A stretch of DNA of 64,000 nt from Alphaproteobacteria bacterium. Its GTDB lineage: Bacteria; Pseudomonadota; Alphaproteobacteria; Rhizobiales; Beijerinckiaceae. The position numbers and the translations under genes were made by a program. Each line of letters begins with the position of its first letter. Positions within the stretch are counted from its first letter, which is position 1. The stretch covers positions 1-64,000 of the forward strand of contig VGDT01000011.1 of the NCBI GenBank assembly GCA_016869595.1. Direction: 5' to 3'. Shown piece after piece: positions 56,348 to 63,227 of this stretch. The notes beneath the pieces are model-generated. The model had not been told where the DNA came from. It saw only the letters and a list, made by a program, of their open reading frames with translations, and searched no databases.

Positions 56348-56423
56348 GCCCTGTTAAATGCGGCGGTGTAGACATATTTACTCAGTCATCTTTTATGGTC
56401 CGAAATCGAGCTGAGGCTTGACA

Positions 56424-56756
56424 ATGAGAGTAGTCAAAGAAGTGCGAGACGACCGGACGGTTTTGAGCGTCCAGGAAGACCGTATCGATGCCCACAACTC
56501 CGGCGACCTCAAGAATGTAGTTCTGAAAACGCTCGAAGGCGGCGCGCAAAACGTGGTGATCGACCTTGCGAGAGTGCAGTTCATCGACAGCTCGGGTCTG
56601 GGCGCTCTGCTCTCCGGCTATAAGAACGCAAATTTGCGCTCCAGCGGGTTTGCTTTGGCTGGTTTACAGCCGCGCGTAAAGTCGATGTTTGAGCTGACGA
56701 GGTTGCACAGAGTTTTCGACATTTATCCAAGCCTGCAGCTGGCGCTGAGCGCCTGA
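56424..56756 (+). CDS. STAS-domain anti-sigma factor antagonist
   Basis: A 110-residue SpoIIAA/RsbV-like protein. The phosphorylation loop is RVQFIDSSGLGALLSGYKN, with the acceptor serine about residue 57. The ribosome site GAGG precedes ATG 56424. It lies 13 bases before the RsbW-like kinase. When dephosphorylated it should bind that kinase. Confidence 0.92.
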   Translation: MRVVKEVRDDRTVLSVQEDRIDAHNSGDLKNVVLKTLEGGAQNVVIDLARVQFIDSSGLGALLSGYKNANLRSSGFALAGLQPRVKSMFELTRLHRVFDIYPSLQLALSA

Positions 56757-56769
56757 ATGGGGAGGGGCG

Positions 56770-57204
56770 GTGATCGAAATGTGCGAGACGGTGGTCAATC
56801 TGGACATCGTCGTTCCCAATCAAACGCGATATCTGCGTTTTGTTGGCGCGATCGCCGAGCAACTCGCCAAGGAATTAGACGTTCAGGAGGATAAACGCGA
56901 CACTCTCGCTTACCATTTAAATCTTGCGCTGACTGAGGCTGTCGCCAACGCGATTCAATATAGTTCCGCAGTGAATGCGAAGGACTCGGTCCGAATCTGC
57001 CTTTCCGTCGAAGACGCCTATCTTTCTGTACGTGTTTTCGACCATGGCAGAGGCTTCGATCTCGCTGCTGTGCCGACGCCTGACTTCGACGAGCTTCGCG
57101 AACGCGGCCGCGGTATATTCTTCATCCGTTCCGTGATGGACTCTGTCCAATATCGCAAGACGGATTCGGGGAATGTGCTCGAGATGCGCAAGAAAATCGC
57201 TTAG
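56770..57204 (+). CDS. RsbW-like anti-sigma/serine kinase (GHKL ATPase)
   Basis: A 144-residue HATPase_c_2 protein: N-box LNLALTEAVANAIQYSS, G1 VFDHGRGFDL, G2 ERGRGIFFIRSVMD. GTG start with GGGGAGGGG upstream. It would phosphorylate the STAS partner and sequester an unknown target. No sigma factor gene is beside it, so the output could be a non-sigma protein. The glutamate dehydrogenase frame overlaps its end by 32 bases if ATG 57173 is used. Confidence 0.9.
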   Translation: MIEMCETVVNLDIVVPNQTRYLRFVGAIAEQLAKELDVQEDKRDTLAYHLNLALTEAVANAIQYSSAVNAKDSVRICLSVEDAYLSVRVFDHGRGFDLAAVPTPDFDELRERGRGIFFIRSVMDSVQYRKTDSGNVLEMRKKIA

Positions 57205-60200: not shown

Positions 60201-60628
60201 AGGACATGCGCGTGGCCGGCACTTATTTCGATCAGGCCGCGAATCTTTTCGGACTGCAGAAGCTCACTGCCTTTTTAGAGGATGTGAAGCCAAGAGACCG
60301 CTGGGAGCAGCAGCTGCAGTCCGCGCTTGATGCGCGGATGAGGGATGCGTCTGCGCGCATTGCGTCCATGCAATTACTCAACGGGGTCAGCGACGCTCGA
60401 ACATTGTTCCGTAACGTTGGCCTTGAATTTCGTCTTGCTGGGCTTGAGCGGCTGGCGTTCAAACTCGAAGCCGCGCCCTTTACGACGCTGACGCCTATCG
60501 CGGCCTTCGTCGCCGAGTTGAACGCACTTGTCGACGCATGCGACGCCGCCTACCGCAACCATTCCGGCAAGCGCGCGAAGGGAGCGCGAAGCGGCCGGCG
60601 CATCTCGGCGCAAGCAGGAGCTTCGTAG
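57173..60628 (+). CDS. NAD-dependent glutamate dehydrogenase, large type, lacking the usual N-terminal region
   Basis: Up to 1151 residues. It matches the large NAD-GDH family: LFRAYCNYYQQLGVRVERAR, MAEIYVHSPSMEGIHLRGAK, RGGVRWSDRPEDFRSEIL, the catalytic-lysine segment PQGAKGGFVLK, DKGTATWADIANQI, GVGSMDGDVFGNGML and LLWMGGVGTYVKA. The ~1600-residue L-GDH180 enzymes have another ~450 residues with ACT-like regulatory domains in front, absent here. The length is nearer the L-GDH115 class. The start is ATG 57173 or GTG 57218; neither has a good ribosome site. It lies between an RsbW-like kinase and its probable phosphatase. Confidence 0.88.
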   Translation: MCSRCARKSLSRLPPVLHTPEILAPEIPRPADWDAAADRFLRRASRRVGFELPTDMLRALPKPYRYLVPAARAARDIALIALNEDDEREIVELRPLRGPRAGEAAYEIRLIGGKERALDELLPMLQNMGLRVADQLLFKLNLRVGAWFIRSFIVEPATSSMASMARSRARLLEALKATLSAKVESDALNGLVLGAQLDWRQIDLFRAYCNYYQQLGVRVERARIYRALLRSPASVELLYRYFEARFTPDRGGRDSFQTELDVLTPIRAQLVDVLDKVVDSSDDRILRDLFNLIDATVRTNFYFSGDWARNFIALKISSLGVFNMPPPKPMAEIYVHSPSMEGIHLRGAKVARGGVRWSDRPEDFRSEILALMQTQMIKNALIVPQGAKGGFVLKLSYADAAQRQRLGKEAYCQFLHGLLDLTDNLKHTKIVRPPELVAYDDADPYLVVAADKGTATWADIANQISQSYGFWLGDAFASGGAHGYHHKRLGITARGAWVCVRRHFRELGRNIDAGPFTVVGVGSMDGDVFGNGMLYTRNIRLLGAFDGQYIFLDPNPDPLASFGERRRLFELPQSTWRDYNPALISQGGGVYRRDAKDISLSPEVRAWLGVRHSTTDGEALVRWLLTAPVDLLWMGGVGTYVKASSETNESVGDRVNDDARVDALQLRAKVVGEGANLAFTQRARIEYALKGGRINTDAVDNSAGVDLSDHEVNLKTLLRAPPDENAPKLNDANGLLESLTEEVCASVLQDNDQQSLCLSLDRVRCRANLDPFMDLAEQLENAGYINASAEAFPTRKDVSARETKELTRPELALLMASSKLALKQRLLEDESFLQGSWANDFLASYFPEYVRSHFPEQIRSHSLAREIAVTVICNKVIDEAGVRFLLLGEGLVPTLLSYAAKLYLSFDEIFEGDRWRAAFRARNDLEAAREYGLFLQLQDALAYMCHWAMRRGYRLSPDDEEIERWRSDLSNYRERVEAGEPAREQSLGEPYFDRLGNFPFLVALTRESGEDMRVAGTYFDQAANLFGLQKLTAFLEDVKPRDRWEQQLQSALDARMRDASARIASMQLLNGVSDARTLFRNVGLEFRLAGLERLAFKLEAAPFTTLTPIAAFVAELNALVDACDAAYRNHSGKRAKGARSGRRISAQAGAS

Positions 60629-60632
60629 CGAG

Positions 60633-63227
60633 ATGGAAACGCTCGCCGCAGATCGCGCCATTCTCGACGCTTTCGATGAGGCGCTTTGCGTGCTGGAGTC
60701 CTCAGGCGCCTTACGATCTATGAACCACGCCGCCGAGCGTCTGACAGGCTATTTCGAGAGCGAGCTTCGCGGCCGCTCGTTCTTTTCACAGCTTGTCGCG
60801 CACGACGACGGTAACGGCGAACCTTCGTGGCCGACGCATGCCCGCGAGCGGCTGTCCTTGCGCATTCGACGCAAGGATAAAACGATGATCGACGTGCGCT
60901 GCGAGATCGATCCGCTTGCTGGCGGCGGCGGCTCATTGCTCAAACTGCGCCCGATTGGCGAAGGGCTGAGCGAGACGGACGCGCTCGAAGACATCAAGGA
61001 AAAGCTCGAAACAATCTTCGGCGGCATGGTCGGCGGTCTCGTGGTGATCAACGAGGCCGGCGACATATTGATGTTCACCAAAGGCGCGGAGAGGCTCTTT
61101 GGCTACCGCGCCGACGAAGCGCTCGGAAAGAACGTCAAAATATTAATGCCTTCGCCTTATCGCGAGGCGCATGACAGCTATCTCGCCGCCTATAGGGAAA
61201 CCGGGGTCAAAAAGATCATCGGCATCGGCCGCGAGGTCGTGGGGCGGCGAAAGAACGGCACAACCTTTCCGATGTATCTGTCGATCGGCGAGATCTGGCT
61301 CAAGGGAACGCGCTATTTCGTCGGCGTGACCTATAATCTGACCCGGCTTAAACGCGCCGAGGATCAGCTGCTGACGCTTTCCGCCGCCGTCGACCAAAGT
61401 CCGATCGCGGTGATGATCACCAATAAGGATGGCGAAATTGAGTATGTGAATAGCCGTTTCGCAACCCTTACCGGTTATCCGCCGCATGAACTCATCGGCC
61501 AAAACCCGCGCATGCTGCAATCGAAGCGGACCGAGAACGACCAATATCGGCGCCTTTGGGAAAGCATTCACGCCGGCGTCGAATGGCGCGGACAGATTCA
61601 GGACCGCAGAAAGGACGGCAAGCTTTATTGGGCCTCGGAAATCATCTCGCCCCTTCGCGACGCGAATGGCGAGATCACCCATTACCTCGCGATCCAACAG
61701 GACATCACCGAACAAAAGCGCGACAAGGAGGCGCTGTTTGAGAGCGAACAGCGCTTCCGGCAGATCGCCGACATGGCCGGCGAATGGCTTTGGGAGCAGG
61801 ATAAAGACGGCCGCTATACCTTTAGCAGCAGCGCGGTTGAGGACGTGTTGGGGATGACGCCCCAGGAGGTCCTCGGCAAGAGCTATCTTGATCTCTTCGC
61901 TAAGGAGCCTGCAAGCGACGCGGTCGCGAACAGGGGGCGGAGCCCCATCGCCTCGCGCCGGCCGTTCCACCGGGTCGTGAATCACTACCGCCATAAGAGC
62001 GGCGGCGACGTCTACACCGAGTCGACCGGCGCGCCCGTGTTCGACGAGGGCGGCCGACTCATCAAATGGCGCGGCGTCGACCACGACATGACAGCGCGCA
62101 AAAAGTTCGAGGACGAGCTGCGCGTGCGCAACCGCGCCATCGAATCCGTCCCCATCGGCATCGCCATTTGGGATGCGCAGGCACCGGGCGTTCCGAACAT
62201 TTACGTCAATCCGGCGCTGAGCCGGATCACCGGCTTCGCGCGCGAGGAGCTGCTCGGGCACAGCATGCATCTGCTGCAGGGGCCGGAGACCAATCTCGCG
62301 GCGCTCGAAGAAATCCGCGTCGCCATCGCTGAACGGCAAAGCTGTCAGGTGACGGTGAAATTCTACCGCAAGGACGGCTCCCCCTTCTGGGACGAACTGC
62401 TCATCTCGCCGGTCGCCAATGAGGCGGGACGAATCACTCATTTCGTCAGCGTTCACGCCGACATTTCCGATCGGCGCCGAGTCGAAGAGAGTCGTCACGA
62501 ACTCGAAATCGCCAAACACATTCAGCTGTCGCTGTTGCCGAGCGCGCCGCTGCGCACGCCGCACATGGAGATCGCCGGAATTTGCGTGCCGGCGACGCAT
62601 GTCGGCGGCGACTATTTCGACTATTTCGAGAATGCCGGCGTCGCGGATATCGTCATCGCCGACGTTTCCGGCCATAGCGTCGGCGCCGCGCTGATCATGA
62701 CGGAAGTGCGCAGCACTTTGCGCGCCGAGACGCGGCGGCCGAACAACGGCTTGAGCGGCCCGGCCGAACTGCTGCGTGATCTCAATGCGCTGCTGCATGA
62801 GGATCTGTGTGCGGCCGATATCTTCATCACGATGTTCTATTGCCGCTTCCTGCCGCAGAGGCGACTGCTGCAATACGGCAACGCCGGCCAAAATCCGCCG
62901 CTGCTGTTGCGCGCGGGGCATTCGGACTGCGCGCAGCTTGACGCCGATGGTCTGGTGCTTGGCGTCAAGCGCGAGGTCTTTTTCGAGGAGCGCAGCATCG
63001 AACTCGCGCCGGGCGACAAGCTCATGCTCTACACCGACGGAATCACCGAGACGCAAAATCGCCAGGGCGAATTCTTCGGGTTGGAACGCCTCTGCAACGC
63101 CTTCAGGCAGTATCGCGATCTGCCGCCCGAAGCGCTCATCAAGGCGGTGCTCGTCGATGTGCGCGCTTTCCGCGGCGGAGCGCCAGCGACGGACGACGTC
63201 GCCATGGTGGTGGCGGAAGCGCGCTGA
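60633..63227 (+). CDS. Multi-PAS SpoIIE-type phosphatase with FixL-like heme PAS
   Basis: An 864-residue cytoplasmic PP2C-type phosphatase. PAS1 is at ~10-105. PAS2 (~125-235) is FixL-like: REAHDSYLAAYRETG, then KKIIGIGREVVGRRKNGTTF and PMYLSIGE, with the heme-ligand His at 180 and the signal Arg at 200. PAS3 is at ~250-360 and PAS4 at ~370-490. PAS5 (~500-620) is LOV-like but has GHSMHLLQG with Met545 in the cysteine position. The SpoIIE phosphatase domain (~640-864) has GGDYFDYF, DVSGHSVGAALIM, YTDGITET and ATDDVAMVV metal sites. ATG 60633 has AGGAG upstream; the frame opens inside the dehydrogenase gene. It probably dephosphorylates the STAS protein. Confidence 0.9.
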   Translation: METLAADRAILDAFDEALCVLESSGALRSMNHAAERLTGYFESELRGRSFFSQLVAHDDGNGEPSWPTHARERLSLRIRRKDKTMIDVRCEIDPLAGGGGSLLKLRPIGEGLSETDALEDIKEKLETIFGGMVGGLVVINEAGDILMFTKGAERLFGYRADEALGKNVKILMPSPYREAHDSYLAAYRETGVKKIIGIGREVVGRRKNGTTFPMYLSIGEIWLKGTRYFVGVTYNLTRLKRAEDQLLTLSAAVDQSPIAVMITNKDGEIEYVNSRFATLTGYPPHELIGQNPRMLQSKRTENDQYRRLWESIHAGVEWRGQIQDRRKDGKLYWASEIISPLRDANGEITHYLAIQQDITEQKRDKEALFESEQRFRQIADMAGEWLWEQDKDGRYTFSSSAVEDVLGMTPQEVLGKSYLDLFAKEPASDAVANRGRSPIASRRPFHRVVNHYRHKSGGDVYTESTGAPVFDEGGRLIKWRGVDHDMTARKKFEDELRVRNRAIESVPIGIAIWDAQAPGVPNIYVNPALSRITGFAREELLGHSMHLLQGPETNLAALEEIRVAIAERQSCQVTVKFYRKDGSPFWDELLISPVANEAGRITHFVSVHADISDRRRVEESRHELEIAKHIQLSLLPSAPLRTPHMEIAGICVPATHVGGDYFDYFENAGVADIVIADVSGHSVGAALIMTEVRSTLRAETRRPNNGLSGPAELLRDLNALLHEDLCAADIFITMFYCRFLPQRRLLQYGNAGQNPPLLLRAGHSDCAQLDADGLVLGVKREVFFEERSIELAPGDKLMLYTDGITETQNRQGEFFGLERLCNAFRQYRDLPPEALIKAVLVDVRAFRGGAPATDDVAMVVAEAR

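Follow-up and report, generated by a model that had tools for sequence, protein, structure and literature searches.

A predicted FixL-type heme PAS domain on a SpoIIE phosphatase in a Methylocystis partner-switching gene cluster

The phosphatase encoded at the end of the cluster analyzed here carries five PAS domains, and the sequence, predicted fold and conservation of the second of these (PAS2) strongly support the view that this domain is a heme PAS of the FixL type, attached to a phosphatase of the partner-switching kind. Taken together with the observed order of the genes (Table 1), these features make a heme-gated partner switch the best explanation of the locus, and one that we regard as fairly probable. 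All coordinates refer to the window, that is, to the complete stretch of 64,000 nucleotides of alphaproteobacterial DNA under study (contig VGDT01000011.1, positions 1 to 64,000).

Table 1. Features of the predicted partner-switching cluster in the window.
Feature	Coordinates	Strand	Basis and remarks
STAS protein, anti-sigma-factor-antagonist type	56418..56756	+	Start TTG 56418 or ATG 56424; PF01740 1.5e-20; DSSG phosphorylation motif
RsbW/SpoIIAB-like HATPase kinase	56770..57204	+	PF13581 1e-25
NAD-glutamate dehydrogenase (GDH), 1151 aa, without N-terminal ACT/PAS segment	57173..60628	+	PF05088 3.9e-214
Five-PAS SpoIIE phosphatase, 864 aa	60633..63227	+	ORF list, translation, Pfam domains
PAS1	60633..60986	+	Residues 1-118; poorly conserved
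PAS2, predicted FixL-type heme PAS	60987..61352	+	Residues 119-240; sequence, model, tree
His180 codon, counterpart of BjFixL proximal heme ligand His200	61170..61172	+	Alignment, model; 32/33 homologs
Arg200 codon, counterpart of O2-contacting Arg220	61230..61232	+	Alignment; 27/33 homologs, Gln in 6
PAS3, flavin-type	61353..61724	+	Residues 241-364; best PDB sequence match 3ewk
PAS4	61725..62108	+	Residues 365-492; weak LOV-like matches, best 4e-9
PAS5, LOV-like without photoactive Cys	62109..62483	+	Residues 493-617
Linker, PAS5 to phosphatase domain	62484..62552	+	Most conserved segment of the protein
SpoIIE/PPM phosphatase domain	62553..63224	+	PF07228 1.2e-49

The original prediction held that PAS2 resembles the heme PAS of Bradyrhizobium FixL, and this is borne out by an alignment to BjFixL that covers the whole domain without gaps at 49% identity. 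The residue correspondences first drawn by eye stand in this alignment for His180 and Arg200, as well as for Ile195 and the LSIGE pocket residues Leu216 and Ile218, which are the counterparts of FixL Ile215, Leu236 and Ile238. Structural comparison with FixL, which the prediction had put forward as a check, agrees with it: the top 13 structural rows for the predicted PAS2 model are all FixL heme domains, with DosP next, and His180 sits in helix 60-74 of the model, matching His200 on the equivalent FixL helix. Sequence comparison likewise places PAS2 far nearer FixL than DosP (E-values of 3e-31 vs 3e-15). The pocket is well kept among homologs of the phosphatase, with Ile195 and Leu216 present in all 33 and Ile218 in 27, the other six having Val. 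Two paralogs depart from this pattern: Tyr occupies position 180 in L042 (L056/L042), and a more distant paralog of 40% identity (L043/L057) keeps the His, with Met in the position of the Arg and Pro in that of the Ile. The combination of this sensor type with a SpoIIE-type rather than a kinase output was also correctly anticipated, for the protein ends in a PF07228 domain, contains no histidine kinase and scores 186 bits against the FixL equivalog model, whose cut-off is 850.

The replacement of FixL Arg206 and His214 by Ala and Lys, noted in the prediction as a departure from FixL, is likewise confirmed (Ala186 and Lys194), and the 33 homologs share it, with Ala, Ser, Asn or Thr at the first place and Lys or Arg at the second. 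According to the sections of PMC10765370 available to us, these two FixL residues contact the heme propionates, O2 inhibits the kinase of BjFixL R206A significantly less, and the same variants of SmFixL still display heme and O2 spectra, with autoxidation in air. Hence, heme and gas binding would be expected in PAS2, along a signal path that may differ from that of FixL. A sample of 20 other loci with FixL-like PAS domains (L144-L163) shows R, H, N, A, S or T at the position of Arg206, and all of them keep the His; since these loci were picked by matches to PAS2 itself, what they can tell is limited to the conservation of His, Ile and Arg, and their heme binding is itself putative. Because of this variation, the Arg206 and His214 contacts were not taken as defining a FixL-type heme PAS. 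As for Arg220, which interacts with bound O2 in the same sections of PMC10765370, the six homologs without it could still bind heme, since a heme domain of BjFixL R220A has been crystallized (PDB entry 1y28, titled as its met-heme structure).

In a phylogenetic tree, a single clade (100/99) unites thirty PAS2 sequences and adjoins the group that holds BjFixL (fork 89/82, not starred). The same genome encodes a separate FixL-like histidine kinase (G000:C40, L065:3392-4708, + strand) that scores 373.7 bits against the FixL model, again under the cut-off of 850, and whose PAS keeps the His, Arg and Ile. Derivation of PAS2 from this kinase is not supported, as the PAS of L065 falls outside the PAS2 group in the tree.

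In the output part of the phosphatase, Asp660, 663, 677, 802, 854 and 855 are kept in all 33 homologs, and the linker preceding the phosphatase domain has 10 invariant columns out of 23 and a mean identity of 0.83. The boundaries of PAS1 to PAS5 were set by us, with the phosphatase domain taken from about residue 641. Mean pairwise identities over PAS1 to PAS5 are 0.434, 0.727, 0.707, 0.660 and 0.685, so that PAS2 ranks highest with PAS3 a close second, and PAS1, without a single invariant column, is the most variable. These figures refer to 33 of the 35 distinct homologs found, after dropping a 425-aa frame without PAS2 (L038) and the 40% identical paralog (L043); two further proteins (L039 and L040), 30% identical over the phosphatase part only, were left out. 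The nearest named records belong to Methylocystis, with that of strain sp. B8 at 94% identity, and on this basis we assign the window to that genus. No ortholog was found in other genera at E 1e-100 among 143 genomes of the family, and the phosphatase is the sole SpoIIE match in its own genome. Its frame remains open upstream (60528-60632) as far as a TTG at 60528, within the end of the GDH gene, and ATG 60633 is the assumed start.

A different domain might nonetheless be the one that drives the phosphatase, be it PAS3, sensing redox state through a flavin, or PAS5, leaving the heme of PAS2 a minor or structural part; we consider this unlikely. Such a reading can draw on the near parity of PAS3 and PAS2 in conservation, on the missing propionate contacts of PAS2, and on the resemblance of PAS3 to flavin-type PAS domains, since a PDB sequence search matches it to 3ewk, LOV chains and NifL (2gj3). 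The first of these chains we take to be the methanotroph sensor MmoS. The reading is opposed by the persistence of the PAS2 ligand residues in homologs down to about 52% identity and, as regards PAS5, by the place of the photoactive Cys, which is occupied by Met, Leu, Val, Pro or Thr in all 33 homologs; the window protein lacks several of the LOV flavin-contact residues as well. A classical LOV blue-light sensor in PAS5 was ruled out by the absence of this Cys. More distant copies keep Asn, Asn and Gln at the flavin-contact places of PAS5 that have been lost in the clade of the window. Given the flavin-like character of PAS3 and the LOV-like character of PAS5, neither of which entered into the original prediction, the phosphatase may combine several inputs. 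The chances are smaller still that PAS2 is free of heme, having retained the FixL fold and some of its residues in order to receive another signal or simply to aid dimerization. Resemblance in fold and sequence is by itself no proof of a cofactor, and the Ala and Lys substitutions, the Gln at the Arg220 place in six homologs and the Tyr of one paralog all fit a heme-free domain. Yet His180, Ile195 and Leu216 are almost invariant, the Arg206 place is also changeable in the His-bearing FixL-like loci, and the SmFixL variants at that place keep their heme and O2 spectra in the portion of PMC10765370 cited above. We favor a heme-binding PAS2, although the replaced propionate contacts and the Gln substitutions do argue against a faithful copy of FixL signaling.

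The rarity of this architecture was gauged against 40 long-frame proteins picked from the 83 SpoIIE matches listed outside Methylocystis in 297 genomes of the order. A PAS2 profile matched none of these 40, even at E 10. A Pfam scan of 19 of them revealed HAMP, Cache, CHASE2 or nothing known in place of PAS domains; as none of the 19 has any PAS, this control speaks to how unusual the architecture is in the order and not to the frequency of heme-like PAS domains.

The genes upstream of the phosphatase supply the other components of a partner switch in a tightly packed arrangement, with 13 bases between STAS and kinase genes, a 32-base overlap between those of kinase and GDH, and 4 bases from the GDH stop to the phosphatase ATG. 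The DSSGLG motif of the STAS protein is present in 29 of 29 cluster copies and the ATP-site boxes of the kinase are recognizable in 30 of 30. The nearest solved chain to the kinase is RsbW (6m36, E 6e-6), although the kinase scores below the thresholds that NCBIfam sets for true RsbW and SpoIIAB. Among 13 HATPase_c_2 matches in its genome, the kinase alone is strong (90 bits), with 31 bits for the runner-up. Relatives of the kinase at E 1e-8 occur in 6 of 398 genomes of the phylum, two of them Methylocystis, and GDH is absent from the flanks of about 1.5 kb in the other four.

In the mechanism that we propose, PAS2 would bind heme through His180, and the ligation or redox state of this heme (set by O2, or possibly NO or CO) would be relayed along the PAS chain by its helical linkers. 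On receiving this signal, the SpoIIE phosphatase would dephosphorylate the STAS protein encoded upstream. The dephosphorylated STAS protein would capture the RsbW-like kinase and so free the partner that the kinase holds. Heme binding, gas control with its sign, and STAS dephosphorylation are here inferred; that O2, NO or CO would govern the switch, and that the STAS protein encoded at 56424 would be its target, are reasonable proposals. The available text of PMC12143880 describes how linker-driven dimerization lets PAS and other sensor domains drive phosphatases of this kind.

The cluster is largely maintained wherever the phosphatase occurs. Of 36 genomes of the genus, 28 contain the phosphatase, and in 27 of these the STAS, kinase and full GDH genes lie directly upstream; the contig of the remaining one (G011, L033) starts inside GDH. 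Counting individual copies and including the window, GDH sits between the partners in a full cluster in 29 of 34 cases, is reduced to a fragment in two (L033 and L045, the latter amid apparent transposase genes) and is absent beside three (L048, where the kinase is kept, L056 and L057). The last three are additional paralogs of the phosphatase, located on smaller contigs (137-299 kb) in two genomes, G032 and G021. The full clusters comprise 12 diverged copies with GDH proteins of 49-61% identity; the 17 close copies have an adjoining CGS gene, which is absent upstream of the 12 diverged ones, within flanks of 2.6-3.8 kb. In the eight genomes of the genus without the phosphatase, two of them 98-99% complete and six 59-89%, a GDH match is also absent at E 1e-30.

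The GDH enclosed in this cluster, which did not figure in the original prediction, is itself peculiar. Its catalytic domain is complete (PF05088 positions 3-496 of 497), and its alignment to the 180-kDa mycobacterial enzyme (7a1d) begins at residue 502 of 1611 in the latter. According to Pfam, all that remains of the N-terminal half is the final helical motif together with a portion of ACT3. In the portion of PMC8175468 available to us, that N-terminus is described as three ACT-like domains and one PAS-type domain, proposed to be metabolic sensors. The truncation is common to the 29 cluster copies, whereas we read the N-terminus as 440-650 residues longer in 17 of 19 GDHs sampled across the class, the remaining two being frame-split or incomplete. 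A survey of 289 genomes of the class gave matches in 175, and most of the frames listed span about 1550-1800 aa; a few other short frames are listed (e.g. G483, G614 and G685), and the nearest short frame elsewhere (G534, 1207 aa) looks like part of a longer gene that is divided between two frames. No second GDH of this family was found in the same genome. Of 192 columns invariant in the 19 class GDHs, 38 are kept neither by the window protein nor by more than 90% of the 29 Methylocystis copies, and 12 of these (one a gap) are kept in none of the 29. These changes count against an active enzyme, and the activity of this GDH is only putative.

Gene order, joint absence, the missing sensor half of GDH and the lack of a SigB/F-type member among the seven sigma factors typed suggest GDH as the client of the switch, its ACT/PAS sensing having been lost and moved in trans to the heme-PAS phosphatase, STAS protein and RsbW-type kinase, a proposal that we advance tentatively and regard as doubtful. 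The classical clients of RsbW-type kinases are sigma factors (SigB/F). The genome contains eight Sigma70_r2 matches, of which seven exceed the cut-off and were typed as RpoD, two sigma-32 types, two that we take to be EcfG-like, another ECF and one methanobactin-type factor; none of the seven scores above the SigBFG threshold in the list of its 25 best families. The methanobactin-type factor (G000:C33, L082:892-1782, - strand) is an ECF sigma with a C-terminal match to methanobactin precursors at residues 268-296 (NF040705, TIGR04071), a type of fusion already named by NCBI. An ECF sigma, a transcription factor or some unlinked protein could instead be the client, with GDH merely co-transcribed, perhaps because it is needed under the same condition, and we judge the prospects of this alternative to be about even. 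Beyond the precedent of sigma factors as clients, it rests on the three of 34 Methylocystis phosphatase copies without an adjoining GDH, one of which retains the kinase, and these three copies are the main result against GDH as the client. It must nonetheless contend with the position of GDH between the partners in 29 copies and its overlap with the kinase gene in the window, with its retention in the 12 diverged clusters, with the joint absence of phosphatase and GDH in eight genomes out of eight, and with the failure of all seven typed factors to qualify as SigB/F-type.

Heme PAS domains on kinases and c-di-GMP enzymes, PAS-driven PPM phosphatases and a globin-heme partner switch are already known, the last from the accessible text of PMC4976288. 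A heme PAS built into the phosphatase would be a junction of a new kind. Such a junction fits the exchange of sensor domains between kinases, cyclases and PPM phosphatases outlined in the sections of PMC12143880 at hand. PAS2 shares with the FixL proteins of Bradyrhizobium and Sinorhizobium the counterparts of His200, Arg220, Ile215, Leu236 and Ile238, and departs from them in its SpoIIE output, in the Ala/Lys pair and in being one of five PAS domains. Like E. coli DosP, a heme-PAS c-di-GMP phosphodiesterase, the phosphatase would join a FixL-like heme PAS to a non-kinase output, albeit a different one. Bacillus RsbP/RsbU follow the same plan, in which a helical linker connects a sensor domain to a PPM phosphatase that works together with STAS and RsbW-type proteins, as set out in the same sections of PMC12143880; a heme-type PAS, a GDH gene in the cluster and typed sigma factors without a SigB/F member set the present system apart. 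Heme-based O2 sensing in a partner-switching pathway, predicted here, has its parallel in the stressosome of Vibrio brasiliensis, where, in the accessible text of PMC4976288, the heme resides in the globin domain of RsbR and acts on the kinase RsbT instead of lying in a PAS inside the phosphatase. For a regulator protein acting on a large NAD-GDH, as conjectured here, there is a precedent in GarA, which inhibits the mycobacterial 180-kDa enzyme in the available portion of PMC8175468, GarA being a putative substrate of the kinase PknG in that of PMC5448819; the protein families are different, and the mycobacterial GDH retains its N-terminal sensor half. Neither a heme-PAS SpoIIE phosphatase nor a partner-switched GDH was found in the open-licence literature, which is weak evidence of absence.

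Methylocystis is a genus of methane oxidizers, and methanotrophs require oxygen to oxidize methane. If GDH were the client, the switch would tie oxygen directly to glutamate breakdown and provide a clear case of partner switching on an enzyme. Whether O2 is the relevant ligand could be judged from the clade with Gln in place of Arg, which amounts to a natural experiment. In Methylocystis sp. Sn-Cys (L034, 121-4186), and in no other of the loci searched, the cluster directly follows what we interpret as the mmoY, mmoD and mmoC genes of the soluble methane monooxygenase.
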